Below, piece by piece: positions 18,170 through 46,924 of a DNA stretch of 46,924 bases (the first letter of the stretch is position 1; each line of letters opens with the position of its first letter). The notes under the pieces are model-generated. The model saw only the letters and a program-made list of their open reading frames with translations, was not told where the DNA came from and made no database searches. Location of the stretch: positions 1 to 46,924 of the IMG/VR virus record IMGVR_UViG_3300005613_000113; one strand, written 5' to 3'. Position numbers and translations under genes: made by a program. The stretch comes from a virus.

Positions 18170-20002
18170 ATGGCTGCAGGAAACCAAGATTTTAAAGTTT
18201 TTTTGTCTTTTAAAGATGAAGCCACAGGCAAGTTCATTAAAGCTACTAATGAACAAATAAACGCTGTTAAAAAGGTCGGTATTACTGTTCAAAAAGAAGG
18301 AAAAGCAGTAGGTATCAACTTAGATAAAATGGCTCAAGGACATGAGAAAGCTGGTAGAGCCGCTAGAAATCATAATCGTATAATTACTGAACTTCAAGGA
18401 AAAATCGGTTCATTGCGTAATATAATGCTTTTATATTTCTTTGCAATGAGAATACCATTAAAGATATTTAAAGCAACTACCGAAGCTGCGATTATCCAAG
18501 AAAACGCAATGATGAAATTATCTGCTGCTTTTCGTGCAACAGGGAGAGGTTCTAAAGAAGGGATAGACGGAATAACTGAATTGGCTTCATCTTTACAGAC
18601 TCTAACAGGATATGGAGATGAACAAATAATTTCATCAGCTGCATTATTAGCAAATTATAAATTGACAGATGCTCAGATAAAAAAACTTCTTCCTACAATG
18701 CTTGATATGACTGCTGCGTTAAAAGCCGGTGGGAAAACAGTTGATGTTGAGGCAGTGGCAAAAAGATTAGGGTTAGCGTTTACCGGGCAAGCAAGCTATT
18801 TAAAACGTTATGGTATTACTATTGATGAAACTACTGCAAAATATGGTTCATTTGAAGAAATATTGAAAGCGGTAAAATCTTCTGTTGATGGAATAGCTGA
18901 AGCTATGGGTAAGACGTATGAAGGGCAAAGAAACATATTAGCTGCTTCTATCGGAGATTTAAATGAACAATTAGGTATGATAGTTACAAAATCTCCTATT
19001 GTCATTTCTGCAATGCGGTTAATTGGTGAACAAATTACAAAATTCAAAGAAAGCATAAAAACTGCCAGAGAAAGCACTAAAAACTTTGTAGATAGCTGGG
19101 GTAAAGCAGCTGCAGCAATAATTGGTGTATTTGGAACTTTAGGTTATCTTGTAGGCAATTTTGCTCAAGGAATGAGGGCTATTACTCTTGCAATATCAAA
19201 AATTATAGAGTTGGGAACATTTTTAAAAACAGGTAATTGGGATAAAAATTTAAAAGCATTTTCAGATGACATAACTAAAAATATTAATGACGCTGCTGAA
19301 GGCTTAAAAAATCCGATAAAAGGCATGGTTGATACTTATGAAGGATTATTATTGGAAGCAGAAAAAATATATAAGAGTATGGTTGATGGCATGGATGGTA
19401 TAGTTGAAAAAGCCAATGATAATATAATAAATACTTTTAGTGCGACTTTAGAAATGACTACAACGTTTGCTTCAAATATGGTTACTGCATTATCTGACGG
19501 ATTTTTTAAAATCGTTAAAGGAGATTTTGAATCGTTAAAAGACGTTGTAGTTTCATTTGGCGATACAATGCTTAAAACAATATTAGAAATTATTTCTAAA
19601 TTAATGTTAATGTCTATTTGGAAACAATCTGCCGGGTTTTTAGGATATACAGCTGTCGCGACTTCCGGTCATACAGGCGGTTATTTTATGAATCAAGACA
19701 ATAGCTTTGGTTTTAGAAAAAAGTTTCATTCCGGTGGAGAAGTTCCTGCGACATTGCTTGAGGGGGAGGGTGTATTAAGTAGAGTTGGAATGAATAATTT
19801 AGGAGTTGACAATTTAAATCGTCTTAATCGCGGTGAAGGAATGAGTTCAGGACAAGTTGTTAATAATTATTATATTCAAACGATTGATGAACGGTCATTT
19901 AGAGAAAGGCTTCAACAAAACGGTGATATATACTCAAATGCTGCCGGAAGAAGCATAATAGACAATCAATCATTAAGAAAAATTTCACAAAGATATGGCT
20001 AA
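18170..20002 (+). CDS. Tape measure protein
   Basis: 610 residues, starting one base after the T stop. It has a charged helical N-terminus, a hydrophobic segment (NIMLLYFFAMRIPLKIF), a long helical body (QNAMMKLSAAFRATGRG, LSSLQTLTGYGDEQIISSAAL-type) and a second hydrophobic part (AAAAIIGVFGTLGYLVGNFA). The C-terminus has HTGGYF, FHSGGEVPATLLEGEGVLSR, a Gly-rich ending common in tape measures. With the usual rule of about 0.15 nm per residue, the tail would be roughly 90 nm. It sets tail length and aids DNA passage. Confidence 0.9.
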   Translation: MAAGNQDFKVFLSFKDEATGKFIKATNEQINAVKKVGITVQKEGKAVGINLDKMAQGHEKAGRAARNHNRIITELQGKIGSLRNIMLLYFFAMRIPLKIFKATTEAAIIQENAMMKLSAAFRATGRGSKEGIDGITELASSLQTLTGYGDEQIISSAALLANYKLTDAQIKKLLPTMLDMTAALKAGGKTVDVEAVAKRLGLAFTGQASYLKRYGITIDETTAKYGSFEEILKAVKSSVDGIAEAMGKTYEGQRNILAASIGDLNEQLGMIVTKSPIVISAMRLIGEQITKFKESIKTARESTKNFVDSWGKAAAAIIGVFGTLGYLVGNFAQGMRAITLAISKIIELGTFLKTGNWDKNLKAFSDDITKNINDAAEGLKNPIKGMVDTYEGLLLEAEKIYKSMVDGMDGIVEKANDNIINTFSATLEMTTTFASNMVTALSDGFFKIVKGDFESLKDVVVSFGDTMLKTILEIISKLMLMSIWKQSAGFLGYTAVATSGHTGGYFMNQDNSFGFRKKFHSGGEVPATLLEGEGVLSRVGMNNLGVDNLNRLNRGEGMSSGQVVNNYYIQTIDERSFRERLQQNGDIYSNAAGRSIIDNQSLRKISQRYG

Positions 20003-20924
20003 TACTGATATTCTAACATTAACTCCGGAATTTGGTTTACAAGAAAGTATTAATTTTAAAACCAATATAAGTGATTCTGAAAGCGGTGTCGAACAACGCG
20101 ATGCTTTATGGGATCATGGGTTGAGAGATTATGAACTTACTTGTAAATTTTTAACTAAAGCAGCAATGGATTTAATCTGGAGTTTTTATATTTCCAGATT
20201 AGGTGCTTATGATTATTTTTTAATTAAAATTTTGTCTGAATATCAAGCAGAAGATGAAGAAGTTGGATCTGCTGACGGCGGAACTGCTGAATTCTTATTA
20301 CATAATTTTCCAGTAGATACAACCGGAAATAGTTCTTGTACGGTTGGTGGAGTTGCTAATACAAATTATACATTAAGCAATAATTTTACAACTGAAAAAT
20401 CATACATTACATTTGACCCTATTCCTGCGTCTGGTGCAATTTTGTTATCTTATGATTATTATTTTAAAGTTAGATTTCTTGAAGATAAGTTGACAAGAGA
20501 ATTGGCAGCTTATCAATTATTGCATACAGGAATTAAATTGAAAGAGATTAGATGGAGTACATATTCACCTCCTGAAGGAAATTTTAGTTCTTCAAGTTCT
20601 TCTAGCTCAATGAGTTCCAGCTCATCATCAAGTTCTAGTAGATCATCTAGTTCTTCTTCCAGTTCATCATCAAGCTCATCAAGTTCATCTAGTTCTAGTT
20701 CTTCTTCATCTAGTTCTTCATCTTTTTCAAGCAGTTCTTCCAGTTCATCAAGCTCAAGTCATTCAAGTTCTTCATCTAGCTCAAGCAATTCATCTAGCTC
20801 ATCAAGTTCTAGCAGTTCTTTCAGCTCAAGCAGTTCATTCAGTTCAAGTTCATCAAGTTCTTCTAGCAGTTCTTTCAGCTCAAGCAGTTCATTTAGTTCA
20901 AGTTCATCTAGCTCTAGTGGTTAA
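19995..20924 (+). CDS. Distal tail / DUF2460-type protein with long serine tail
   Basis: 309 residues, overlapping the tape measure by 8 bases. Residues 1-195 match the DUF2460 (gene-transfer-agent gp12-like) pattern: LTLTPEFGLQESINFKTNIS, QRDALWDHGLRDYELTCKFL, IWSFYISRLGAYDYFLIK, and YYFKVRFLEDKLTRELAAYQ. Residues about 196-308 are nearly all serine with Met, Arg, Phe, His and Asn as single breaks. It is probably the distal tail ring below the tube. The serine part would project from the tail tip. Confidence 0.8.
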   Translation: MANTDILTLTPEFGLQESINFKTNISDSESGVEQRDALWDHGLRDYELTCKFLTKAAMDLIWSFYISRLGAYDYFLIKILSEYQAEDEEVGSADGGTAEFLLHNFPVDTTGNSSCTVGGVANTNYTLSNNFTTEKSYITFDPIPASGAILLSYDYYFKVRFLEDKLTRELAAYQLLHTGIKLKEIRWSTYSPPEGNFSSSSSSSSMSSSSSSSSSRSSSSSSSSSSSSSSSSSSSSSSSSSSSFSSSSSSSSSSSHSSSSSSSSNSSSSSSSSSSFSSSSSFSSSSSSSSSSSFSSSSSFSSSSSSSSG

Positions 20925-29510: not shown

Positions 29511-30140
29511 TTATTCATTAACATATCTTTTTAATGCTTCCTGGATAGTACTTTCCGAGTATTTCTTACCGTTTACTTCTATCATAGCTTCAGGTTTTGC
29601 CACATCTATTCCTGTTATCCTTTTAAACATATCTGCATTAAACTCTGGTAATGATTTTACATATTCTATCGCTTTCGCAGGCATATCTTTCCACGCTTCG
29701 TATGGCTTATCCCATGTTTTAAGAGTTGGACAAATATCAGAAGCATTTACTTTAGACCAATCATTACCGCATTTTACATACAATTCAAAAGCATTATTGA
29801 ATTTAGGATACCAACCATTTAATTCTTTATGTAATGTACACCAGACTTCATTAAATCTTTCCTCTGAAACTTCCACGCCAAAAATAGACCAACTTTTCTT
29901 TTTATCTGCTAAAAATATTGCTTTATCCACACCATAAGAGTTGAATATTCCATAAGACCCATTAACTCCATAAGACCAATTAACTCCATAAGACCAATCA
30001 ACTCCATCAGACCCATTAACTCCATAAGACTTATTAACTCCATCAGACCCATCAACTCCATAAGACTTATTAACTCCATCAGACCCATTAACTCCATAAG
30101 ACCAATTAACTCCATTAGACCCATCAACTCCATTATCCAT
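29511..30140 (-). CDS. Hexapeptide-repeat protein with unknown C-terminal domain
   Basis: 209 residues after AAGGAGG. Residues 3-71 are about twelve hexapeptides of the type G-V-(N/D)-x-S-(Y/D/N), such as GVNWSY, GVNGSD and GVNKSY. This regularity fits a solenoid such as a beta-helix. Residues 75-209 form a globular part (SWSIFGVEVSEERFNEVWCT, TLKTWDKPYEAWKDMPAKAI, MIEVNGKKYSESTIQEALKR). The repeats come from 18-bp DNA units. Function unknown; protein or DNA mimicry or surface binding are options. Confidence 0.6.
   Translation of the reverse strand: MDNGVDGSNGVNWSYGVNGSDGVNKSYGVDGSDGVNKSYGVNGSDGVDWSYGVNWSYGVNGSYGIFNSYGVDKAIFLADKKKSWSIFGVEVSEERFNEVWCTLHKELNGWYPKFNNAFELYVKCGNDWSKVNASDICPTLKTWDKPYEAWKDMPAKAIEYVKSLPEFNADMFKRITGIDVAKPEAMIEVNGKKYSESTIQEALKRYVNE
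29938..30131 (-). repeat. Eighteen-bp tandem repeats
   Basis: About eleven imperfect 18-bp units of the form CCATTAACTCCATAAGAC on the plus strand lie in a row, with small changes in the first and last codon. The unit keeps frame, so copy number can change without breaking the gene. Confidence 0.85.
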
Positions 30141-37774: not shown

Positions 37775-38578
37775 TTATCCCAACAATGTATCGTTAATGA
37801 ATTCTATTTGAGCCCAGAATTCCAACAAATTATTTGGCGCTGGTATGCCACTCAGTATAATACGATGTTTAATGCTATTTTTATATTTCAGTATCACTTT
37901 TGTAATTTCTGAGTTAGGATTTTTCATTTTGCTGGATTCATCAACAATAAAACAGCTGATTTTTTCTTCTATCGGTATTTTAGACATTTTAACTAATTTT
38001 TTAAATCCTTCAAAGTTGACAACATATACATCATAGTTATTGTTCCATTCTTTATAATTATTCCAAAGGACAACAGACCGAAGATTACTCCATTTATTTA
38101 TTTCAGATATCCAAACACTTTCTAAAGTAGATAATGGCGCGATAATGATTGCCGGAAGTTTCCAATACTCTAATAGTTTTATAGCAGTTAAAGTTTTTCC
38201 TAACCCGGGATCCATAAACAAAGCGTAGCTGTCAAACATAGTTGATAAGAGTATAGCTTTCTTTTGATGTTCATAGCACATCGAGATATCAACATCTTTC
38301 AATTCATTTATTAAACAACTAGATGATTTTATTTTGTTTGCGAGGTTTACTCTTTCGTGATATTTCTGCCGTTCATTGCGTAATCGTTCATAAACAATTT
38401 TAGTATCTAAATTATATTGCACATTTAGATTGTCTATAATATCAATTAATTTACGGATAGGAAATACCCAAGAAGATGTAGATTTATTAAATTTATAATC
38501 GCCGATTGCTTTAACTAATTCTTTTTCTTCATATCGGCATTTTACGATTGCCAAATCGTTTTCAGTCCAGACTTGCAT
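37775..38578 (-). CDS. SNF2-family helicase, N-terminal half (split gene)
   Basis: 267 residues after AAAGGAGA. It has a HARP-like or small N-terminal part, then YEHQKKAILLSTMFDSYALF, Walker A DPGLGKT (near 123), APLSTLESVW, FIVDESSKMKN (DEAH-like box, motif II) and LSGIPAPNNLLEFWAQIEF (motif III). It ends INDTLLG and then a stop. In intact SNF2 helicases the same point leads into the sequence that opens the ORF at 37216. Gives the ATPase half of the split enzyme. Confidence 0.85.
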   Translation of the reverse strand: MQVWTENDLAIVKCRYEEKELVKAIGDYKFNKSTSSWVFPIRKLIDIIDNLNVQYNLDTKIVYERLRNERQKYHERVNLANKIKSSSCLINELKDVDISMCYEHQKKAILLSTMFDSYALFMDPGLGKTLTAIKLLEYWKLPAIIIAPLSTLESVWISEINKWSNLRSVVLWNNYKEWNNNYDVYVVNFEGFKKLVKMSKIPIEEKISCFIVDESSKMKNPNSEITKVILKYKNSIKHRIILSGIPAPNNLLEFWAQIEFINDTLLG

Positions 38579-38600
38579 AAATCAAATCTCCTTTTTCAAT

Positions 38601-38727
38601 TATACCGTTATAAGCATTAATGGAAAAAATGATTTTCAACATATTATATCATTGAAAACACATTATAACATTGACGTTTTTTGTGTCAAGTGCTTTTTTT
38701 CATAATACTTATAACGGTATAACGGTT
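38601..38727 (-). promoter_or_regulatory. Operator-like repeats flanking the replication promoter
   Basis: TATACCGTTATAAG at 38601 (downstream of the promoter) and TAACGGTATAACGGTT at 38712-38727 (upstream) share the element seen twice at 31216-31414. A TTTTCAA/TTGAAAA palindrome lies between. Sites on either side of the promoter suit repression, possibly by looping, by the RHH protein encoded next door. Confidence 0.6.
38662..38689 (-). promoter_or_regulatory. Strong sigma-70 promoter of replication operon
   Basis: On the minus strand TTGACA (38689-38684) and TATAAT (38667-38662) are both perfect and 16 bases apart. The start point would be about 80 bases before the SNF2 N-half ATG at 38578. 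Confidence 0.88.
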
Positions 38728-38731
38728 TTAT

Positions 38732-38920
38732 TTATTGCTTGATTATTAACGTTTCCGGTTTCTCCATAGCACGCCGGACAAGCAACCTAATTAGTGCTGA
38801 ACGTGAGGATATCTCCGGTATTTTCTTTTTTACTTTCCTATCAAGGAAAGTAATTTCACATTGAGTGAACCCTACCAACACATTAATTTTACGATCTTTT
38901 GCATTTACATTCTTTGTCAT
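38732..38920 (-). CDS. Ribbon-helix-helix DNA-binding regulator
   Basis: 62 residues from ATG 38920, which has AGGAGGTT upstream; the six-base-longer TTG start is within that site. Sequence fits RHH proteins: strand INVLVGFTQCEITFLDRKVK, then helix-turn with SSRSALIRLLVRRAMEKPE. It lies directly upstream of the replication promoter and TAACGG repeats, which makes it a good candidate for their repressor. Confidence 0.7.
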   Translation of the reverse strand: MTKNVNAKDRKINVLVGFTQCEITFLDRKVKKKIPEISSRSALIRLLVRRAMEKPETLIIKQ

Positions 38921-38931
38921 TAACAACCTCC

Positions 38932-39150
38932 TTATTCTTTGTCTTGATTTGCTGCCGGGATATAATCAATTCCGCGCTTTCTCATCTCTGTAATTAAAAT
39001 ATCTGTCATTTTTTTAATAACATATTCATTCTCAAAAGGCCCATGAATATGTATATGCCCAGAAGCATTAGCTACAATAACTAAATGCTCTGCAGCATTG
39101 TCTAATTCAGGTATGTTATTTTTGTTTTTACAATTAAATGGACAAATCAT
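38932..39150 (-). CDS. Hypothetical small protein, 72 aa
   Basis: Starts in overlap with the RNase H stop (ATGATT... coupling). It has an N-terminal Cys pair (MICPFNCKNKN), then LVIVANASGHIHIHGPFENE with alternating His, and a helix (YVIKKMTDILITEMRKRGI). The His pattern might bind metal. No family recognised. Confidence 0.5.
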   Translation of the reverse strand: MICPFNCKNKNNIPELDNAAEHLVIVANASGHIHIHGPFENEYVIKKMTDILITEMRKRGIDYIPAANQDKE

Positions 39151-39557
39151 TACTTACCTCCTTCCTTAGCCGCTTTATCAGCAAGATTAATTAATTGACG
39201 AGGCACCCAATCTATTTGAAGTTTGGATATCTGTTTTTTTAATTTTAAAAATTCTTGGTAAAGCGATTTAGTATTTTCATGCTTAACATTCCAATAACCT
39301 TTAGCTTGGTTGATAACTATTTTACTATCAGAAAAGATATATTTATCTAATCTCTCATTATACATCTTAGCTAATTTCATAGATTCAATCAATGCTAACC
39401 ATTCTGCCTGTATGCTTGTCTTAATACCAATACTTGCTGAATATCGATAATTAGGACAAACAATCTTTGAGTTCTTAGTCCTATCCCAAGCAACGATTCC
39501 TATTGAAGCCGGCCCGGGATTACCTTTACTAGAACCATCACAAAGAATTACTATCAT
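39150..39557 (-). CDS. RNase H-like protein
   Basis: 135 residues. RNase HI fold motifs are present: IVILCDGSSKGNPGPASIGI (first Asp), SIQAEWLALIESMKLAK (Glu), YIFSDSKIVINQAKGYWNVK (Asp), and DWVPRQLINLADKAAKEGGK near the C-terminus (Asp). All four acidic residues can be placed. It may remove RNA primers or RNA-DNA hybrids in phage replication. Shares single-base overlaps with both neighbours. Confidence 0.85.
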   Translation of the reverse strand: MIVILCDGSSKGNPGPASIGIVAWDRTKNSKIVCPNYRYSASIGIKTSIQAEWLALIESMKLAKMYNERLDKYIFSDSKIVINQAKGYWNVKHENTKSLYQEFLKLKKQISKLQIDWVPRQLINLADKAAKEGGK

Positions 39558-41137
39558 TATTTTAACATCTCCTTTGGTACTTTACCTTTAATCCTTGAGC
39601 CAATTATTTCTTTAATGATTTCTGCTTTCTTTTCTTTCCAAGTTAAACTACCAATTTTAAGTTTAAGTTCTTTTGATAATTTTTGCAAACCGGCTTTTGA
39701 AAACTTCATTAAATATTCCTCGGTAATTTCAAATTGTTTAGCAATATTTAAAGAAGCTTCTTCGCCCAATGATTGTAGTTCTTCTGTTGTGTAATTGTTT
39801 AATCTGCTTAGTACCACTAATTTAATTATTGATACTAACTTAGCATTAGTCAAACTTTTTAAGTTGTCAATATCTCTTAATTCGTAATTTGACTTTTTGC
39901 CTTTCAAACTTAAATACTCGGATATTGATTCACTGCTTGCATTTTCTTGTAAGAATAATTGATGAAGCAATATTCTGTTAGATTGGACATCTTTGACATT
40001 GGAAAGCAATCCGTTAATAAAGAATTGTCTTTTAAACAAATCAACTCTGCTTGCTTTCTGTCTTGCTTCATATTCTATCGAAGCATCTTTTTCTGGATCT
40101 CCGGTCTTAGGCAATGATGTTGCTCTGCGTTCTATTGCTTTTGATTTTCGCATTGTTCTTTTAAAACAATCTTTGTTTAAGCAAACAGGTTTTTCTTTCC
40201 CATTAGGTCCGATAATATATGCAAATGTCGGACAAGTTTTTAAACATTCCTTTTCAAACTGTTCTTTCGGAAAACCATTACCTTCATAACTTGTAAAGTC
40301 AACTATATCCTTTAACGATTCGTATTCTTTTGAACCATATCTAGGCTCTTCTTTGATTACAATTACTTTTTTTCCTTGTTTTTTGTAAGCAGATTCTTTT
40401 TCTTTCTGGACTTCTTTTATCTTTTTTGAGAAACAATCACTATTCATACATTTACCTTTTAAAGAATTATCTTTATCAAATAAATCATTGAATAATGAAC
40501 CATTGAACGTGCAACTTTTGCAATCTTTTTTATCGAAACAAGCATTTTCTAATCTTTGTGAATAATTATTCAATTCACTTTCTGCTTTCGTTGGAGAATA
40601 TCGGTAACGAATAATATCAGCGGCTAAATGTTTTTGAAACTTAGCATTAGATAATCTTGTCAATACGAAACCATGATCTTCTGATATTTTTCCTTGCTTA
40701 ATCATAGTCTTTACTTCATTGCATAAATTAAGCAAAGCTAATATTCTTTTAATCCGATATTCAGATTTCCCTGTAACCACCATGATGTCTTTTGCCTGAT
40801 AATTTTCTCCTAATGATTTATATGCTAATGCTTCATCAATAGGATTTAAATCTTTTCGTTGAAGATTCGCAACTAATTGATATTCAACGCGGTCATCTTT
40901 GTCTGCTTTGATTGCTAATATAGGAACATCAGTCAACCCAGCATACTTTGCAGCGTTAAATCTTCTATGGCCGTCAAGCAAATCAAATTTTCCGCCATTT
41001 TTTCTTACCAATAAAGGTTGAAGTATTCCTTTTTCTTTCAGCGATGTAATTAAACTTGATAAACTTTCTTTTGTAATATCCTTTCGAATATTTTCACCGA
41101 TAGATACTTGATCTATTTTGACTGTAGATAATTCCAT
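39557..41137 (-). CDS. ParB/Spo0J-like nuclease-domain protein with Cys clusters
   Basis: 526 residues after AGGAGGTAG. Residues 1-110 are a ParB N-terminal domain: IDQVSIGENIRKDITKESLS, LQPLLVRKNGGKFDLLDGHR, RFNAAKYAGLTDVPILAIKA; then QLVANLQRKDLNPIDEALAY and an HTH region. The middle holds paired Cys motifs (ACFDKKDCKSCTF, KGKCMNSDCFSKK, CLKTCPTFAYIIG, PVCLNKDCFKRTM). The C-terminal 150 residues are helical. It may bind DNA or regulate transcription; partition is doubtful because no ParA is seen. Confidence 0.8.
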   Translation of the reverse strand: MELSTVKIDQVSIGENIRKDITKESLSSLITSLKEKGILQPLLVRKNGGKFDLLDGHRRFNAAKYAGLTDVPILAIKADKDDRVEYQLVANLQRKDLNPIDEALAYKSLGENYQAKDIMVVTGKSEYRIKRILALLNLCNEVKTMIKQGKISEDHGFVLTRLSNAKFQKHLAADIIRYRYSPTKAESELNNYSQRLENACFDKKDCKSCTFNGSLFNDLFDKDNSLKGKCMNSDCFSKKIKEVQKEKESAYKKQGKKVIVIKEEPRYGSKEYESLKDIVDFTSYEGNGFPKEQFEKECLKTCPTFAYIIGPNGKEKPVCLNKDCFKRTMRKSKAIERRATSLPKTGDPEKDASIEYEARQKASRVDLFKRQFFINGLLSNVKDVQSNRILLHQLFLQENASSESISEYLSLKGKKSNYELRDIDNLKSLTNAKLVSIIKLVVLSRLNNYTTEELQSLGEEASLNIAKQFEITEEYLMKFSKAGLQKLSKELKLKIGSLTWKEKKAEIIKEIIGSRIKGKVPKEMLK

Positions 41138-41151
41138 GTAACTACCTCCTA

Positions 41152-41322
41152 TTAGTTTATTGTCATGTTGACAATATCAGGTTTTTCTTGAAACAAATCT
41201 TTTCTAAGATAAATCTTCTTGGGAAATAACAGTGGAAAAACTTCTTCAGAATTATACGTAAAAATATAATATCTATCAGTTTTTCCACTATATTCGAAAC
41301 AAATACTTACAATATCTTTCAT
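41152..41322 (-). CDS. Hypothetical protein, 56 aa
   Basis: AGGAGGTGAT, which also forms the end of the upstream ORF, precedes ATG 41322. Sequence MKDIVSICFEYSGKTDRYYI, then FTYNSEEVFPLLFPKKIYLR. Found by reading the gap. It is a small alpha/beta protein with no family recognised. Confidence 0.5.
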   Translation of the reverse strand: MKDIVSICFEYSGKTDRYYIFTYNSEEVFPLLFPKKIYLRKDLFQEKPDIVNMTIN

Positions 41323-41327
41323 TTATT

Positions 41328-41444
41328 TTAATCACCTCCTTTCTTTCTATCTTTTTTCACTTTTATCCATAATAAAATAACAAACACAAATAGGCATAGC
41401 ATAACTGTGTAGCAAAAAGTTTGTTCAGCTATTACGTATTCCAT
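41328..41444 (-). CDS. Single-pass membrane microprotein, 38 aa
   Basis: MEYVIAEQTFCYTVMLCLFV, then FVILLWIKVKKDRKKGGD: one transmembrane helix and a basic tail. Its last codons GGA GGT GAT form the ribosome site of the next gene. It may be translated by coupling from a ten-residue ORF (41476-41444) whose stop overlaps its start. Confidence 0.5.
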   Translation of the reverse strand: MEYVIAEQTFCYTVMLCLFVFVILLWIKVKKDRKKGGD

Positions 41445-41472
41445 TACTCTGCTATCCTTTTATAAGTAGTTT

Positions 41473-41580
41473 TCATTTTTTCCCTCCTTTATTTTTAACA
41501 TTCCATTCTCTTTGATGGAAGCATACTCCTAAAAGTTCGTTGAGCTCTTCCATTGTTAATTTAGGAGTCCCTAATATCAC
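41473..41580 (-). CDS. Possible 35-residue protein with GTG start
   Basis: From GTG 41580: ILGTPKLTMEELNELLGVCF, then HQREWNVKNKGGKK. The end supplies AAAGGAGGG for a following ten-residue ORF. The start is unclear: an ATG with a better site (AGGGGGTGATAA) opens only a four-codon ORF that stops just at this GTG, which suggests coupling or a disrupted start. Confidence 0.4.
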   Translation of the reverse strand: MILGTPKLTMEELNELLGVCFHQREWNVKNKGGKK

Positions 41581-41613
41581 ATAACCACCATTTTATCACC
41601 CCCTTTTTGTTTT

Positions 41614-41658
41614 TTATCTCTCATCAGTTATGTTTTAAACATAATACGCCGGAGATAA
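41614..41658 (-). ncRNA. Hammerhead-like RNA relic (no GAAA/stem III)
   Basis: On the minus strand: UUAUCUC, CGGCGUA, an 8-bp hairpin (UUAUGUUU/AAACAUAA), CUGAUGA, GAGAUAA. The first and last pieces pair perfectly (7 bp), as stem II; the hairpin equals stem I; GUA fits a cleavage triplet. The GAAA and stem III present in the other two elements are replaced by CGGC. It is probably a decayed or incomplete hammerhead and should not cut in the standard way. Confidence 0.55.
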
Positions 41659-41725
41659 GTGAGCTCGGCAGGATATGATTATATCCAGCTACGCTCACAC
41701 TCATGACAGCAGCTTTGTGCCTATT

Positions 41726-42676
41726 TTAATTACTCACCAAAGCTAAAGCAGTATCAAAAGCTTTCATCTTTAATGCTGCGCCACTTCCTAACCAAATGCT
41801 CTTTAACTTGTTTGAAGCATTATTGTTTTTAACACTTCTTTCATGGTCGACATATCTTGTTACAGCATTGTAAGCACTCCAGACTGTATCTTTAATCTCC
41901 GGATATTCCGGGCGATTGTGGAGATGCATCAAATCATAAATTTGATTTTGCTTTCTTGAAGATATATCAATATCATTTTCTCCACAGATAAGAGAGGTGA
42001 AGTAAACTTCCGCTTGCTCATCTCTTATCTCATTCTTTGAGAACTCTTTAATCGAATTCTCAAAGTCAGAGTAAAAAGTAACTGCTATTCCTAAAGCTCT
42101 TTGTGCTTCTCGGATCTTGCTATTGATATTCCCAGTATGCCTTATTGATATTCCGTCTTTTGTTTTTGACAATGCAGCTGATAAAGTATTCTGGCAAACA
42201 ACTCTTACCGGAGTGAAAAACATCTTTAACGCTGAGCAGCCATCGTGAGAATTGGTAAGCAAAAGATACTTCTCAACTATATCTTTTTTTGTAACTTCAA
42301 TGATTTCAGGTAGTTTTGCAAGTATCCAAATGCGCTCTCCTTTTCCTAAAGCTCCGGCTGTATGGTACATCGCAAACTTTTCACCAACTACTGAATCAAA
42401 GAAGTCAAAAGATTCAACGTTCTGGACAGGTTTATAAAGATTACCAACTATTCCTAAAGGCTCATTGGTATCAACTCTTACGGTAGCGAATTTACCTTCA
42501 ATCTCTTTTTGATTTTCCGTATAAACCTTTTGTAAATCTACTTGATAATCAAGATTAGCCGCTTCAATAGCTTCTTTTGCTGTAGCTGGATTATCAAGCT
42601 CAGTTCCCAAACCATGCCAAGGCTTTTGCCCTGTGTAAAACATTCTATTCCCATTCTCATTAAGATTATGTGCCAT
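41726..42676 (-). CDS. DUF932-family phage/plasmid protein
   Basis: 316 residues. Typical features: NRMFYTGQKPWHGLGTELDN at the start, TAKEAIEAANLDYQV, then SHDGCSALKMFFTPVRVVCQ and NTLSAALS, and VTRYVDHERSVKNNNASNKL. These match the DUF932 (TIGR03299-like) family found widely in phages and plasmids, whose role is still unclear. It lies between small zinc-type genes. Confidence 0.85.
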   Translation of the reverse strand: MAHNLNENGNRMFYTGQKPWHGLGTELDNPATAKEAIEAANLDYQVDLQKVYTENQKEIEGKFATVRVDTNEPLGIVGNLYKPVQNVESFDFFDSVVGEKFAMYHTAGALGKGERIWILAKLPEIIEVTKKDIVEKYLLLTNSHDGCSALKMFFTPVRVVCQNTLSAALSKTKDGISIRHTGNINSKIREAQRALGIAVTFYSDFENSIKEFSKNEIRDEQAEVYFTSLICGENDIDISSRKQNQIYDLMHLHNRPEYPEIKDTVWSAYNAVTRYVDHERSVKNNNASNKLKSIWLGSGAALKMKAFDTALALVSN

Positions 42677-42685
42677 TTAACCCTC

Positions 42686-42874
42686 CTACGCTTTTACAAA
42701 ATTTGTACTTTTTTCACTCTCATCTTTTCCTTGATTGAAACACTCATCGCAGTTACAAGATACCTTGCCTGTTCCTTCCCACATTACCCAATCTCTTGAA
42801 TCCAAAGATGCACCGATAAAAAAAGATACTTCCTTTTTTATCTTCCCGCAGTAATCACACTTTAACTTACTCAT
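42686..42874 (-). CDS. Zinc-finger small protein, 62 aa
   Basis: ATG 42874 follows AAAGGAGGTGAG; a GTG nine bases earlier is inside that site. Cys pairs: LKCDYCGKIKKEV near the start and VSCNCDECFNQGK near the end; between is IGASLDSRDWVMWEGTG. Probably zinc-bound. It is the first gene after the second hammerhead (42966-43034). Confidence 0.6.
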   Translation of the reverse strand: MSKLKCDYCGKIKKEVSFFIGASLDSRDWVMWEGTGKVSCNCDECFNQGKDESEKSTNFVKA

Positions 42875-42903
42875 GCTTCTCACCTCCTTTTAGAATAGAT
42901 TTA

Positions 42904-42942
42904 TAAAGAGATAATAATTATTTAACTTTTACTATCTCTTTA
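42904..42942 (-). other. Perfect 10-bp hairpin between ribozyme and gene
   Basis: TAAAGAGATA pairs fully with TATCTCTTTA around 19 AT-rich bases. It would fold at or near the 5' region of the RNA left after ribozyme cleavage and could protect it or tune translation of the gene at 42874. Confidence 0.65.
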
Positions 42943-42965
42943 CAGATAATTTGCTGAATTCTTAT

Positions 42966-43034
42966 GCCTCATCAGAGCCAGTATCTCTGGCTGACATCTC
43001 CGATTAACTTTCGTTGTATCAGAGATGTTTCGGC
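42966..43034 (-). ncRNA. Hammerhead ribozyme (type II), copy 2
   Basis: Minus strand, 5' to 3': stem II strand GCC; core GAAA; stem III CAUCUC/GAGAUG with a 21-base loop; cleavage triplet GUC; stem I AGCCAG/CUGGCU with AGAUA loop; core CUGAUGA; stem II strand GGC. Every conserved core base of the hammerhead fits, with C15.2-G16.2 and A15.1-U16.1 pairs. Stem II is only 3 bp. Predicted cut is between 42993 and 42992. It lies between the Api92-like gene and the zinc-finger gene. Confidence 0.88.
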
Positions 43035-43044
43035 TATCAGTCTT

Positions 43045-43587
43045 TTACCCTCCTCTATTGCCAAAATAATCACCTGATAAATATTGAATAACTTTTCCGC
43101 CTTCAACCTCTAATATTCCGTTAAAGCCCATTCCACATTCAAAATACCGCAGCTCAAAGTTTAAATAAGGAAACATCTTACTCATTTTTTTAATCAATGG
43201 CTCAGGCGGCGACCAAGCAGAATTGAATTGATAAAAGAGCTCATCGTTTGTATCTATCTCTAATTTTACATCATAACAACCCCACTTTGTCCCCCACTCT
43301 TTTACACACCAACTATACCCTCCGGAATTATAACCATCTTTAATGTATGGAAACTTTTCTAACGCTTTTTCGTATGCGTCTTTTTCTCCTTTCAATTCTT
43401 CAATCAACCTATTGCGCTTTTCATCTTGTTCTTTCGCTTTTTTATCTTGCTCATCAAATTCTTTAGGATAAGGAATAAATTTATTAGCAGATAATAGGCA
43501 ATCTCCTTCTTTAGCGAAAGCTTTAAACTTTGCTATGTCTTTAATAGAGCCGGTAACTCTTAATTCATTATCAACGTGATTAGGCAT
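43045..43587 (-). CDS. Api92/DUF1281-like ferredoxin-fold phage protein
   Basis: 180 residues after AAAGGAGG. The start MPNHVDNELRVTGSIKDIAK, the middle YSWCVKEWGTKWGCYDVKLE, then FQFNSAWSPPEP-type phrase (YQFNSAWSPPEPLIKKMSKM) and ELRYFECGMGFNGI are typical of the Api92-like (DUF1281) family of phage and plasmid proteins. A charged helical insert (KKAKEQDEKRNRLIEELKGE) sits after residue 45. The role is unknown; it stands in the accessory operon just upstream of a ribozyme. Confidence 0.8.
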   Translation of the reverse strand: MPNHVDNELRVTGSIKDIAKFKAFAKEGDCLLSANKFIPYPKEFDEQDKKAKEQDEKRNRLIEELKGEKDAYEKALEKFPYIKDGYNSGGYSWCVKEWGTKWGCYDVKLEIDTNDELFYQFNSAWSPPEPLIKKMSKMFPYLNFELRYFECGMGFNGILEVEGGKVIQYLSGDYFGNRGG

Positions 43588-43588
43588 A

Positions 43589-43735
43589 TCAACCTCCTTT
43601 ATTTCTTAAAGCAAAATAAATAGCGTATAGTTGTTTCTTGCTCATCTTTATAAACTTTGCTTTACTTTGCGGATAAGCAATAGACAACGCCCCGACGATC
43701 TCCCACTTATGCTTTGGTATATAATAGTTATACAT
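43589..43735 (-). CDS. Small basic protein, 48 aa
   Basis: ATG 43735 with AGAGGTAAGAG upstream. Sequence MYNYYIPKHKWEIVGALSIA, then PQSKAKFIKMSKKQLYAIYF. Likely a small helical domain similar to DNA-binding microproteins of phages. Its 3' end (AAAGGAGG) is the ribosome site of the Api92-like gene. Found by reading the gap. Confidence 0.55.
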   Translation of the reverse strand: MYNYYIPKHKWEIVGALSIAYPQSKAKFIKMSKKQLYAIYFALRNKGG

Positions 43736-43754
43736 CTCTTACCTCTTTGTACTT

Positions 43755-43955
43755 CTATATTCCAAACATGTCTTGATACATTTCTGCTATCTCTGCACTT
43801 TCCTCAATATCAAATATTGCGTTTGGAACGCTTGGATAATCTTCGTCGAGCTTTTGTCTTTCTGGAGTTAATCTATCCCGGCAATCATTACAGAGATAAC
43901 TATAGTCTGAAATCATTGTGTCTTTTTTGCACTTTTGACATATACCTTTTTTCAT
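43755..43955 (-). CDS. Zinc-ribbon small protein, 66 aa
   Basis: After TAGGAGG. It has CQKCKKDTMISDYSYLCNDC: two CxxC pairs 13 residues apart, then a RDRLTPERQKLDEDYP segment and an acidic tail (IEESAEIAEMYQDMF). A small zinc-bound adaptor is likely. Confidence 0.6.
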   Translation of the reverse strand: MKKGICQKCKKDTMISDYSYLCNDCRDRLTPERQKLDEDYPSVPNAIFDIEESAEIAEMYQDMFGI

Positions 43956-43967
43956 ATTATCCTCCTA

Positions 43968-44141
43968 TTAAAAGTCTGCTGTGTGGACAATTTCTTTTCC
44001 GTCTTTTTCACATAAATAGATGCTTATCTGATAACTCTTTTTTACTTTTAACTGCTTTGCTAACTTTAACTGCGCTGCATACGTTGTTTCGGCATAGACT
44101 TCATACTTTTTGCCCTTATATAATCCGATATAGCCGTTCAT
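43968..44141 (-). CDS. Small conserved phage/plasmid-type protein, 57 aa
   Basis: ATG 44141 after AAAGGAGGTGAGAG. Sequence NGYIGLYKGKKYEVYAETTY, AAQLKLAKQLKVKKSYQISI, YLCEKDGKEIVHTADF. I recognise this pattern from small proteins found in phages and mobile elements, function unknown. It is the first gene after hammerhead copy 1; its mRNA 5' end would be set by ribozyme cleavage. Confidence 0.65.
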   Translation of the reverse strand: MNGYIGLYKGKKYEVYAETTYAAQLKLAKQLKVKKSYQISIYLCEKDGKEIVHTADF

Positions 44142-44168
44142 CTCTCACCTCCTTTTTTTTGTTTTGTT

Positions 44169-44227
44169 ATAGCTCGTCAGTATGTTTTCAAAACACAGAC
44201 GGCGGAGATAATCCGCCGTTTCGCTAT
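44169..44227 (-). ncRNA. Hammerhead ribozyme (type II), copy 1
   Basis: Minus strand, 5' to 3': stem II strand AUAGC; core GAAA; stem III CGGCGGA/UCCGCCG with a UUAUC loop; cleavage triplet GUC; stem I UGUGUUUU/AAAACAUA; core CUGACGA; stem II strand GCUAU. Stem II is a perfect 5 bp. All invariant core bases fit the hammerhead (position 7 is variable). Predicted cut is between 44198 and 44197. The structure starts at the stop codon of a short ORF and ends 28 bases before the next ATG. Confidence 0.93.
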
Positions 44228-44278
44228 TTAGTCTTTATAACTTTCCGGAAATAACCAATTTAACATCTCTTCGTCCAT
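44228..44278 (-). CDS. Possible 16-residue peptide
   Basis: AAAGGAG stands before ATG; sequence MDEEMLNWLFPESYKD. Its stop touches stem II of the hammerhead. It is too short to be sure of; the good ribosome site is the only support. Confidence 0.35.
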   Translation of the reverse strand: MDEEMLNWLFPESYKD

Positions 44279-44317
44279 AAAACTCCTTTTGTCTTTTCCG
44301 CTGTAACGATTTAACGT

Positions 44318-44416
44318 TTAGCGAAGCGGACACTTTTCGCAGTCTTTTCTACTGCAATTATTGCATATATTGAACAACCTTCTCATCACCTTTTTAATCT
44401 TTTTAATCTTTTTCAT
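44318..44416 (-). CDS. Cys-cluster microprotein, 32 aa
   Basis: ATG 44416 after AGGAGATAAAG. Basic helix (KKIKKIKKVMRRLFN) followed by CNNCSRKDCEKCPLR with five closely spaced Cys/His-like ligands (four Cys). It could bind zinc or an iron-sulphur cluster and nucleic acid. It directly follows the hydrolase gene. Confidence 0.5.
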   Translation of the reverse strand: MKKIKKIKKVMRRLFNICNNCSRKDCEKCPLR

Positions 44417-44425
44417 CTTTATCTC

Positions 44426-44815
44426 CTATTTGTAAAATACTTGGTCTTTGTATTCATAAACTTTTGTTAAAGATTTCACCCAATAAGGAGTGCCAAAAGC
44501 TTTGATATTCTCCCAATGGGTAGCGCCGTTAGTTATGTCTTTTTCGCTTGATTCATTCCACGCTTTTTCTGCTAACCGCCAAACCCATTCAGGCTCTTTG
44601 TCAACGTGTTTTGCGTTAACTCCATATACACCTTTTAGCGTTTCGCGATTTCGAATAGCGCAAGCGACAGATAACATACCTGTATAGCCTTGATTGCTTG
44701 CTTCTCCGATGATTGCCCTTATAGCTTTTTGCTTATCAATCTGTCCGGCATAAACCGAAGTATGAAAGATAAGCAAGAAGATTAAGGAAAGTAAACGTCT
44801 TTTTGCTTTATTCAT
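44426..44815 (-). CDS. Secreted cell-wall hydrolase (SleB/Hydrolase_2 family), endolysin candidate
   Basis: 129 residues from ATG 44815, which follows GAGGAGGTT; the longer frame to 44830 lacks a site. Residues 1-23 form a signal peptide (RRLLSLIFLLIFHTSVYA). The catalytic domain has AIRAIIGEASNQGYTGMLSV (Glu), ACAIRNRETLKGVYG, then TNGATHWENIKAFGTPYWVK, as in SleB/CwlJ-type hydrolases. With a signal peptide it would reach the wall without a holin. Being outside the late lysis region is unusual; it may act in lysis or in early remodelling. Confidence 0.8.
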   Translation of the reverse strand: MNKAKRRLLSLIFLLIFHTSVYAGQIDKQKAIRAIIGEASNQGYTGMLSVACAIRNRETLKGVYGVNAKHVDKEPEWVWRLAEKAWNESSEKDITNGATHWENIKAFGTPYWVKSLTKVYEYKDQVFYK

Positions 44816-44816
44816 A

Positions 44817-44966
44817 TTAAACCTCCTCAATTCTGCATTCTGACAACCAGAAGTCTTGCTTACAGCAATAGATACCGAAGCGCGTTTCCTCTTTTGGATT
44901 TATTTCTCTATTGCAAAAAGGGCAATAGAACTTGCGCTTTACCATATCTTTTAATGATATAAACAT
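44817..44966 (-). CDS. Zinc-ribbon microprotein, 49 aa
   Basis: ATG 44966 after AAAGGAGGTGAG. Sequence FISLKDMVKRKFYCPFCNRE, then GIYCCKQDFWLSECRIEEV. CxxC followed by CC and C gives a likely zinc site. It stands two bases before the hydrolase start. Found by reading the gap. Confidence 0.6.
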   Translation of the reverse strand: MFISLKDMVKRKFYCPFCNREINPKEETRFGIYCCKQDFWLSECRIEEV

Positions 44967-45100
44967 CTTTCTCACCTCCTTTGTGTTTTTATACGGTTAA
45001 TCTATTCTAAATTAAATGCTGAGATATAAAGACGTTGGAAAGCTGGGAGGGGGAATACCTCCACTACTCTCCAATAAAACAACTCAATAACATCTTCACT
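44967..45100 (-). other. Leader with nested inverted repeats
   Basis: No gene is visible. TTGGA/TCCAA (45035-45039 with 45070-45074) encloses GGAGG/CCTCC. It lies upstream of the 44966 operon on the minus strand and downstream of the AT-rich repeats. It could be an attenuator or part of the replication origin. Confidence 0.4.
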
Positions 45101-45153
45101 ATTATATATACTATATAGAGAAACTTACTATATATTATATATACTATATAGAG
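45101..45153. repeat. AT-rich 20-bp direct repeats next to DnaA array (possible unwinding element)
   Basis: A 20-bp unit (ATTATATATACTATATAGAG) occurs at 45101-45120 and 45134-45153. It is almost pure A/T and lies 100 bases from the DnaA-box array, as expected of a duplex unwinding element. Confidence 0.6.
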
Positions 45154-45250
45154 TGCAATTTTTAACTGCTTAAACATTTCGTCAATGAGATAAAACATTT
45201 CAGAGATAATATAACTGGATAGCGCTTTGAACTCGGCTAACGAGCAAAGT

Positions 45251-45501
45251 CTATCCACAGCTTATTCACAGCTGTGAATTCATTTATCCACAGCTTATCC
45301 ACAGCTGTGAATTCATTTATCCACAGCTTACTCACAGCTTATCCACAGCTTACTCACAGCTTATCCACAGCTTATCCACAGCTTACTCACAGCTTATCCA
45401 CAGCTTATCCACAGCTGTGAATTCATTTATCCACAGCTTACTCACAATTTACTCACAGCTGTGAATTCATTTATCCACAGCTTACTCACAATTTACTCAC
45501 A
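45251..45501 (+). other. DnaA-box array, probable replication origin
   Basis: Nineteen direct units of TTATCCACA (10 or so exact), TTACTCACA, TTATTCACA or CTATCCACA start at 45251, 45262, 45284, 45295, 45317 and on to 45493, all on one 11-bp register. The four empty register positions hold inverted TGTGAATTC boxes that form TTCACAGCTGTGAA-type palindromes. TTATCCACA is the canonical DnaA box. Regular helical phasing suggests a cooperative filament of host DnaA or a phage initiator. Titration of DnaA is an alternative. Confidence 0.8.
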
Positions 45502-45510
45502 TTTTTAAAA

Positions 45511-45532
45511 CAATTGGGTATATTGGCAATTC
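45511..45532. repeat. Inverted copy of operator-like site, left
   Basis: Contains ATTGGCAATTC; the reverse complement GAATTGCCAAT recurs at 46099-46109 with further similarity (CCCAATTG against CCCAAATTG). The two lie on either side of the coiled-coil gene, in opposite orientation. Confidence 0.6.
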
Positions 45533-45547
45533 AAAACTTTTAAAAGT

Positions 45548-46066
45548 TTATGCTTTAATTTGTGTTTTTTTTGTGTCCCATAGTAACCCTGCTTCATAAA
45601 CGATGTTATCAGCAACGCGATTATCTCCGTTTATTCCTTGCTTTTTCAATTCTGCTTTAAAAATTTTTTTCCAATCGGCATTGCTAACATCAATTGTGAT
45701 GTCATTTATTCCAATTCGTTTGAAAATCATCTGCTTATCAACGAAAATCCATTCTTGTTTTCTACGTGGCAAGGAATTTTCTGTTTTGTAATTGACAAAG
45801 TTTAAAATCTCTTTGGCAAAGGAAACTCTTTCTTTGATTTCTTTCATTGATTGCTTAAAAGTATTCTTTGCTTTTATTGCGTTTGCGTTTGCGTTTTCTA
45901 AAATGCTTTTGGCTTCGGCAATTTGTTTTTGTTTATCTTCTTCGCTTAAGCAATCAGAATATTCTGTCGCAATGATTTGTTTTTGTCTTCTCATTTCTTG
46001 CTTTAATTCTTCTTGCTTTGCTTTTAATTCCTTTGCTTTGTTTAGTAATTCGGTAATTTTACTCAT
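45548..46066 (-). CDS. Coiled-coil protein near the origin, 172 aa
   Basis: ATG 46066 follows TAGGAGTAAAAAAA; the longer frame to 46108 has no site. Residues 1-95 are a long coiled coil (LLNKAKELKAKQEELKQEMR, then IAEAKSILENANANAIKAKN). The C-terminal part (WIFVDKQMIFKRIGINDITI, DVSNADWKKIFKAELKKQGI) is mixed. It lies between the DnaA array and a strong promoter, framed by inverted GAATTGCCAAT sites. It could be a regulator or accessory of the origin; no family recognised. Confidence 0.5.
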   Translation of the reverse strand: MSKITELLNKAKELKAKQEELKQEMRRQKQIIATEYSDCLSEEDKQKQIAEAKSILENANANAIKAKNTFKQSMKEIKERVSFAKEILNFVNYKTENSLPRRKQEWIFVDKQMIFKRIGINDITIDVSNADWKKIFKAELKKQGINGDNRVADNIVYEAGLLWDTKKTQIKA

Positions 46067-46098
46067 TTTTTTTACTCCTAAAATTTTTGTAAAATTTC

Positions 46099-46120
46099 GA
46101 ATTGCCAATGTCCCAAATTG
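46099..46120. repeat. Inverted copy of operator-like site, right
   Basis: GAATTGCCAAT then GTCCCAAATTG. It lies between the promoter at 46144-46171 and the start at 46066, a typical operator position; the partner is at 45511-45532. Confidence 0.6.
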
Positions 46121-46143
46121 TCAATGAACAATTTTCTAGAATC

Positions 46144-46171
46144 ATTATCGCAAATATATATATATTGTCAA
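46144..46171 (-). promoter_or_regulatory. Sigma-70 promoter of coiled-coil gene
   Basis: On the minus strand TTGACA (46171-46166), 16 AT-rich bases, GATAAT (46149-46144). The transcript would start about 70 bases before ATG 46066. Confidence 0.75.
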
Positions 46172-46212
46172 TGATTTTCTTTTAAAATATTTTAGAATAT
46201 TTTAAATATTGC

Positions 46213-46240
46213 TTGACAATTTATATATATATGGTATAAT
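46213..46240 (+). promoter_or_regulatory. Sigma-70 promoter facing right
   Basis: TTGACA and TATAAT, both perfect, with 16 bases between. It is back to back with the leftward promoter at 46144. The 46247-46500 stretch downstream has no convincing gene, so it may make a leader or untranslated RNA. Confidence 0.75.
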
Positions 46241-46505
46241 GGCAAAAGTTAGAAAAAAAAATGTTGGAAATCTGTACCACCACAACCATATACAGCTTCG
46301 AACTCTATTTTCCACCTCTCCACTTCTCATATTCTTTTACACTTCTTTAACTTTTTATTACCCGGATCGTTACATTACACACAATGCTGCCTATCTTTTT
46401 CCCCTTTTCTCAAATCCTTATTTTTATTTTTACATTAGATTTCTATTTCAATTCAATATGGTATAGCAAGAGTTCCAAGCATTATCAAAAAATCCAAAAT
46501 AATTC
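46241..46505. other. Stretch without a convincing gene
   Basis: Short frames exist on both strands but lack ribosome sites and normal composition. The main feature is the leftward promoter-type repeat at 46460-46480. Confidence 0.5.
46460..46480 (-). promoter_or_regulatory. Leftward promoter-type repeat, copy 2
   Basis: Matches the site at 31024-31044 in 20 of 21 bases (GGTATAGCAAG, one change, GTTCCAAGC on the plus strand). Its minus-strand reading has the extended -10 TGCTATAC. It faces the genes to the left. Confidence 0.55.
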
Positions 46506-46534
46506 TTGACATTATCTCAATTTTGCTATATATT
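46506..46534 (+). promoter_or_regulatory. Sigma-70 promoter of small RNA candidate
   Basis: TTGACA at 46506-46511, 17 bases, TATATT at 46529-46534, with TG upstream of the -10 region. Confidence 0.75.
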
Positions 46535-46540
46535 TTAACT

Positions 46541-46652
46541 ATCTGACAAACATAAGATTATCTGTGGCGCAAGAGCTAAATAAAAAAAGATGAGAATAGA
46601 TAAAATAAATGTAAGCAAGAATTCAGTCCTGAATATTTCAGGGCTTTTTTTA
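46541..46652 (+). ncRNA. Candidate small RNA, about 110 nt
   Basis: A strong promoter, about 85 bases without a proper start codon and ribosome site, and then an intrinsic terminator define a short transcription unit. It could be a trans-acting small RNA or a leader with an attenuator for the gene at 46679. No known RNA family recognised. Confidence 0.45.
46625..46652 (+). terminator. Intrinsic terminator
   Basis: AGTCCTGAA pairs with TTCAGGGCT (9 bp, one G-U) around a TAT loop and is followed by seven T's. Orientation is rightward. Confidence 0.9.
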
Positions 46653-46678
46653 TTTATACACCTATCGAGGAGGTATGA

Positions 46679-46924
46679 ATGACATTTATATTGTCGATGG
46701 CGAGTTTGATACTATACCGTTTAGGCGGAATGAAAGGAAAATGGTTCAATACCAAAATAAGGGATTTGGGTTGTCCGACAGCAGCATTAGTATGGATGTT
46801 AATATTTACGCGTGGATATTCATTATTCACTCATTTCATTGCCTTTGGCTTGCTATTCGCGTCATTGACTACTTATTACGATGAAAGCAAGAATAAAATA
46901 AAGGATTCATTGGCAAGATTGATA
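46679..46924 (+). CDS. Phage membrane protein, N-terminal part (3' truncated)
   Basis: Open to the window end, 82 codons. ATG 46679 is chosen over ATG 46675 because the AGGAGG site is seven bases before it rather than three, and because this frame reads as a membrane protein: MTFILSMASLILYRLGGMKG, then WFNTKIRDLGCPTAALVWML and SLFTHFIAFGLLFASLTTYY. The layout, with LGG and RDLGCP between helices, resembles small phage inner-membrane proteins of unknown function. Start of a rightward operon that runs out of the window. Confidence 0.65.
   Translation, partial: MTFILSMASLILYRLGGMKGKWFNTKIRDLGCPTAALVWMLIFTRGYSLFTHFIAFGLLFASLTTYYDESKNKIKDSLARLI

Follow-up and report, generated by a model that had tools for sequence, protein, structure and literature searches.

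Two conserved type II hammerhead ribozymes predicted to divide a leftward tailed-phage transcript

Introduction

Perreault et al. (2011; PMC3088659) proposed that hammerhead ribozymes of phages cut long transcripts into gene-sized mRNAs. According to the available text of that study, clustered phage hammerheads cut in vitro, and those of A. tumefaciens also do so in E. coli. Its Figure 3 presents prophage clusters (the A. tumefaciens ardA triple, C. scindens and A. caulinodans) in which same-strand copies surround single genes or short blocks, with the same proposed role, and it also describes HHphage of haloviruses HF1 and HF2, a variant of high-salt archaeal viruses positioned a short distance ahead of the initiation codon of an early phage gene. 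De la Pena et al. (2017; PMC6155905) note a link to phages and, in the portion of their text available here, leave the role of prokaryotic hammerheads open.

Here we describe two hammerheads, HHR1 and HHR2, in a virus record of 46,924 bases that carries terminase, capsid, ParB-like, helicase and primase genes; this whole stretch is referred to as the window. The pair belongs to a ribozyme kind already described in phages. HHR2 resembles the type II family RF02276 (Perreault et al. 2011; PMC3088659) in element order, core letters, open stem II, two closed stems and phage context, but it scores below the family cut-off of 37 bits, lacks a pseudoknot to the immediate tail and has a stem III that ends in a second small hairpin. 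Like the published prophage clusters, insofar as that source covers them, the two copies share a strand, but they occur in a different phage and among different genes, and their cleavage is predicted. HHR2 also precedes a gene start, as HHphage does, although its core is standard. The Janusvirus arrays described below likewise consist of type II hammerheads between co-directional genes, there in a non-structural region and with 11, 9 and 9 copies compared with the two of the window.

Identification of HHR2 and HHR1

Every type II element that the initial annotation had named for HHR2 was borne out to the base on the minus strand (Table 1), and the cut that it placed between 42993 and 42992 coincides with the site predicted from the element layout. 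One amendment concerns stem III, which had been given as 6 bp; these pairs are present, but the helix is longer, and its tip bears a further AAC-GAAA-GUU hairpin. The core is complete (C3 U4 G5 A6 N7 G8 A9 in CTGATGA, G12 A13 A14 in GAAA), the A15.1-U16.1 pair is present (A 43028 with T 42994), and the cleavage-site residue, C 42993, is other than G. The minimum-energy fold of -27.1 kcal/mol contains all three helices, of which I and III are closed and II is open, and none of 200 shuffled sequences was equally stable (z = -4.44).

Table 1. Coordinates of HHR2, HHR1 and neighbouring features in the window
Feature	Position	Strand	Basis or remark
HHR2, type II hammerhead ribozyme	42966..43034	-	sequence, fold, Rfam, covariance models, conservation in relatives
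HHR2 stem II, GCC / GGC	43034-43032 / 42968-42966	-	5' arm / 3' arm; 3 bp, open
HHR2 GAAA	43031-43028	-	
HHR2 stem III, CATCTCTGAT / ATCGGAGATG	43027-43018 / 43004-42995	-	10 bp, one G-U
HHR2 stem III hairpin, predicted to close the upstream product at its 3' end	42995..43027	-	fold, sequence
HHR2 U16.1-C17	42994-42993	-	
HHR2 stem I, AGCCAG / CTGGCT	42992-42987 / 42981-42976	-	6 bp, loop AGATA
HHR2 stem I hairpin, predicted to close the downstream product at its 5' end	42976..42992	-	fold, sequence
HHR2 CTGATGA	42975-42969	-	
HHR1, type II hammerhead	44169..44227	-	scans, R1, Rfam scores
16-aa mini-ORF (MDEEMLNWLFPESYKD) before HHR1	44228..44278	-	stop codon abuts HHR1 stem II
57-aa ORF directly downstream of HHR1	43968..44141	-	ORF
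DUF1281_C-match gene, upstream of HHR2	43045..43587	-	domain match
Leader from HHR2 to next gene: UAUCU (could pair with loop I AGAUA), second long hairpin, ribosome-binding site	42877..42965	-	
62-aa Cys-rich ORF, first gene downstream of HHR2	42686..42874	-	start 42874
DUF932 gene, second gene downstream of HHR2	41726..42676	-	domain match

Covariance-model searches, suggested by the initial annotation as a check, gave a clear signal with one model and a sub-threshold one with the other. Against RF02276, HHR2 reaches 33.2 bits (E 6e-4 for a 5.8-kb search space and 1.1e-6 for the full 46.9-kb record), which is no gathering-level match at the 37-bit cut-off; this cut-off is a database threshold rather than a property of the ribozyme, and HHR2 is classed by its architecture, not as an Rfam match. 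HHR1 scores 25.3 bits, also below the cut-off (E 1.4e-4 over the record), and between 41100 and 46924 no Rfam family besides RF02276 matches at E<=1. We built a second model from 60 hammerheads belonging to loci L112 and above; this model, R1, excludes the window and its relatives. It scores HHR2 (43034-42966) at 43.3 bits, E 2.6e-12, and HHR1 (44225-44171) at 32.0 bits, E 1.8e-8, these E-values being rough owing to a short calibration, and it finds nothing else in the window at E<=5. A structural scan of the window likewise yielded two sites, compared with four matches in all among 200 dinucleotide shuffles, none of them with >=19 pairs. On sequence and predicted fold, the identity of HHR2 as a type II hammerhead is well supported.

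HHR1 lies 1.2 kb upstream of HHR2 on the same strand, among phage genes, and features CUGACGA, a 5-bp stem II and a 7-bp stem III; its layout predicts a cut between 44198 and 44197. The UUUUG of its loop I is able to pair with CAAAA in the tail. Loop I of HHR2 forms no pseudoknot with the immediate tail, and its sole 5-bp partner (AGAUA:UAUCU) is 17 nt away, so the speed of HHR2 in vivo is uncertain.

A third candidate, on the minus strand at about 41665-41610, was rejected: its 3' half resembles HHR1, but it has neither GAAA nor a proper stem III, and R1 gives no match at E<=5. It is at most a relict. The hammerhead-like remnant in this region (41560-41700, minus strand; stem I, CUGAUGA and GAGAU) follows the DUF932 gene and stands just ahead of a ribosome-binding site and a very short reading frame.

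Conservation and covariation in related phages

Searching with the DUF932 gene, we found ten contigs that belong to a single related phage (about 64 kb, 84% protein identity), in which two hammerheads were present in 5/5 records searched. A third phage (L106; 63%) was found by DUF932 alignment, and the structural scan places two hammerheads at the same places in it (scores 52 and 44); in 3.0 Mb of shuffled loci the scan returned no match at score >=32. R1 finds only HHR2 in L106 (E 0.0012), and Rfam detects neither of its hammerheads. Other routes to relatives gave little: megablast of window positions 38500-46900 against phages returned no match, the DUF932 alignment found nothing in genome contigs, and tblastn of DUF932, the capsid protein and the methyltransferase of phage contig G010 (see below) gave distant matches only in phages.

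The initial annotation had taken the difference in stem sequence between the two copies as strong evidence of selection on structure. Alone this is weak evidence, but the comparison of orthologues provides strong evidence, since both copies are kept in the two relatives with the compensatory changes that had been suggested as a check. Across the three phages, 17 of the 18 comparable pairs of HHR2 are paired in all and 10/18 show double changes; for HHR1, 17/17 are paired and 8/17 show double changes. The pairs were counted with hand-set arms in a register chosen to fit the structure, as the automatic alignment of the HHR2 trio was poor, with a short window row. The core letters are intact in both relatives while the stems change, and a single pair is broken, a C-U at 15.2-16.2 of the L106 HHR2. 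This copy also contains one U inserted after CUGAUGA. Most hammerheads of G010 share the insertion, which therefore appears to be common in nature.

Gene surroundings and proposed mechanism

HHR2 lies between co-directional genes. The stop codon of the DUF1281_C gene (43047-43045) is 13 nt ahead of the HHR2 GAAA; relatives of this gene were sought in viral contigs and none was confirmed. A second hairpin between HHR2 and the ribosome-binding site is predicted in both the window and the 84% relative, with different arms. A sigma-70-like site on the minus strand (46171-46144, 11/12 matches) lies ahead of the minus-strand genes, although such matches are not proof.

We consider it likely that HHR2 functions as a type II hammerhead within a leftward tailed-phage transcript and that, with HHR1, it divides this transcript into units. 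During transcription, the stretch of RNA from the stop at 43045 to the start codon at 42874 would fold and cut itself between 42993 and 42992. By analogy with the known chemistry of the class, the upstream RNA would then end in the stem III hairpin with a 2',3'-cyclic phosphate, and the downstream RNA, encoding the 62-aa protein and DUF932, would begin with a 5'-OH on the stem I hairpin. The type II element order is what would leave both new ends hairpin-capped, stem III at the 3' end and stem I at the 5' end; judging from the known layouts, the other two hammerhead orders would leave one end unpaired. HHR1 and HHR2 together would split the transcript into units that differ in abundance and decay, and we infer that cutting would set mRNA stability gene by gene. 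In the simplest reading, a polycistronic message would be diced constitutively, and the resulting units would have protected ends. Dicing into gene-sized units, as already proposed by Perreault et al. (2011; PMC3088659), is partly supported, in that it fits the architecture found here and the arrays of other phages.

Several further features of the window were recorded. On the plus strand, ten exact copies of TTATCCACA, which we take to be the DnaA-box consensus, occur within about 200 bp (45251-45479) at multiples of 11 bp, and this cluster is possibly a replication origin; in 10.9 kb of locus L006 there is no exact copy. Three plus-strand ORFs (2063-3406, 13235-14389 and 19995-20924) have serine contents of 66%, 36% and 38%, arising from degenerate AGTTCT-type tandem repeats, and an 18-bp repeat in a minus-strand ORF (29511-30140; about 10 copies at 85% match) encodes a repeated hexapeptide. 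Window 44426-44830 and L106 1846-2259 encode proteins that, compared by eye only, share a similar N-terminal leader (MNKAKR..FLLIFH) and differ in the remaining sequence, as if an enzyme domain had been swapped behind one signal sequence.

Type II hammerheads in other phages

We surveyed other contigs with stem-specific patterns and with patterns that place no constraint on stems I and III, stem II being fixed as GCC/GGC. The structural scan of the resulting loci revealed at least 504 hammerhead contexts, at least 490 of them distinct, mainly in viral contigs. Among the stem-free pattern matches listed, 131/137 and 123/134 from virus contigs passed the structure filter; bacterial genome contigs were noisier (60/121 among the matches listed). 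The class in which an extra U separates CUGANGA from stem II accounts for at least 137 pattern matches in viral contigs. In the 60 hammerheads outside the clade of the window, 95.0% of pair cells are paired and covariation is 0.688, compared with 0.159 after shuffling, in rows that were chosen by structure.

A pseudoknot between loop I and the tail just 3' of stem II is common in type II hammerheads but not universal. Such a pseudoknot of >=4 bp is available in 299/488 hammerheads among the matches listed, where 88 would be expected with swapped tails. Where a locus contains two or more hammerheads, all lie on a single strand (91/91 loci among the matches listed), with a median spacing of 599 nt.

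The largest array, that of G010 (L077 874-13935), comprises 23 hammerheads by structural scan and 20 by Rfam at E<=0.001 in the first 14 kb, most of them with the U insertion between CUGANGA and stem II. When ten proteins from this array were compared with PHROGs, matches to anti-restriction, Ku-like and DNA methyltransferase proteins were obtained and the other seven had no match. In the Rfam search that included G010, 11/30 records had no match at E<=0.001. The cultured Streptomyces phages Janus, Hank144 and Triumph (Janusvirus; L467, L468, L469) contain 11, 9 and 9 hammerheads, respectively, by structural scan, which found none on the other strand. These sit among thymidylate synthase, kinase, antirestriction and acetyltransferase genes, and in the stretch of Janus examined, 10 of the 13 annotated gaps of >=60 nt hold one. 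Searches for types I and III in the same phages gave one weak match to RF00163 in 10 records (E 0.0026) and none to RF00008 in 11 records at E<=0.01. Megablast of loci L302 and L309 returned no matches.

Position behind stop codons

We analysed placement in 380 distinct hammerheads from loci L112-L466 with >=400 nt on each side, loci below L112 being excluded; this set includes related phages, so that the counts are not independent. In 241/380 among the matches listed, a same-strand ORF (>=60 aa) has its stop codon ending 1-14 nt before GAAA, most often at 2-4 nt, compared with 2.8% of random positions. The other distances, again among the matches listed, are 15-40 nt (34/380), more than 40 nt (65/380) and a stop inside the ribozyme (14/380), with no such stop in 26/380. 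An earlier set gave 39/65 versus 5.2% at random. The next start with a Shine-Dalgarno sequence is most often 20-25 nt after the hammerhead. Within 12 nt of a stop, we found the stem III arm for 63% of 354 hammerheads but only 20% of 92 terminator-like hairpins. Placement directly behind the upstream stop codon is thus a strong rule but not a universal one, since published gene calls for Janusvirus often put the stop 15-50 nt away. We found no report of this placement, or of the Streptomyces phage arrays, in the open-access literature; most subscription papers lay outside the search, and this is not proof of novelty.

This rule invites a reading in which cutting is regulated: a ribosome at the upstream stop, or a 30S subunit at the downstream start, would cover stem II and GAAA or the tail, so that only untranslated RNA is cut. 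The close approach to stops, the distance to the next start, the excess over terminator-like stems and the mini-ORF stop that abuts HHR1 stem II would all be expected. However, compact genomes could yield equal spacing if a ribozyme merely had to stay untranslated, the distance is often 15-50 nt in Janusvirus and is 13 nt for HHR2, and related phages contribute some of the sequences. Placement allows such ribosome gating as a possibility and does not prove it, and as an account of the pair we judge it unlikely. A broader version appears a little more doubtful still. It holds that type II hammerheads are general dicers of phage transcripts, with one per junction in extreme cases; that, set behind stops, they would be held open by terminating ribosomes and cut only if the upstream gene is unread; and that type II would be used as the sole layout leaving closed hairpins on both ends.

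Hammerheads and gene exchange

The neighbours of the pair have changed. Comparison of the window with the 84% relative shows that HHR1 keeps its upstream mini-ORF, a similar one standing directly before HHR1 in both relatives, while the gene that follows differs; HHR2 keeps its downstream 62-aa ORF (69% identity over the alignment), and the gene upstream is unrelated. The three phages suggested that hammerheads mark gene-swap boundaries. In a first control, junctions with a hammerhead kept their partner gene in 2/22 and 2/33 cases, compared with 44/127 and 43/126 for nearby junctions, but the effect was lost when they were compared with hammerhead-free junctions with gaps of >=50 nt (35/140, p 0.17; 28/206, p 0.39), and we rejected the idea. 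A hammerhead was found in only 143/2970 called junctions because simple ORF calling misses small genes.

The same exchanges would be expected if the ribozymes were passengers, catalytic folds conserved without benefit to the phage and spread with gene cassettes by recombination, and the sharing of stems by hammerheads within one phage is also consistent with this. However, the comparison with gapped junctions offers it no help, and the retention of both sites in three diverged phages, with compensatory changes, makes a passenger origin improbable. That no ribozyme acts in practice, the hairpins of stem III and the other stems being terminators or mRNA-stabilising elements and the core a chance match or relict, is hardly credible: the terminator-like stem III and T-rich run of HHR1 and the sub-cut-off Rfam score of HHR2 speak for it, but the core letters are kept while the stems change, R1 detects both copies with the E-values given above, and no T run follows HHR2 stem III.

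Significance

Division of the leftward transcript by two working hammerheads remains the reading that we prefer. The pair adds one more well-supported case to the question of what hammerheads do in prokaryotes, as raised in the available text of De la Pena et al. (PMC6155905). The survey offers, in addition, a cultured system, Streptomyces phage Janus with its 11 copies, and a quantitative stop-codon rule, with which dicing and its dependence on translation may be tested.
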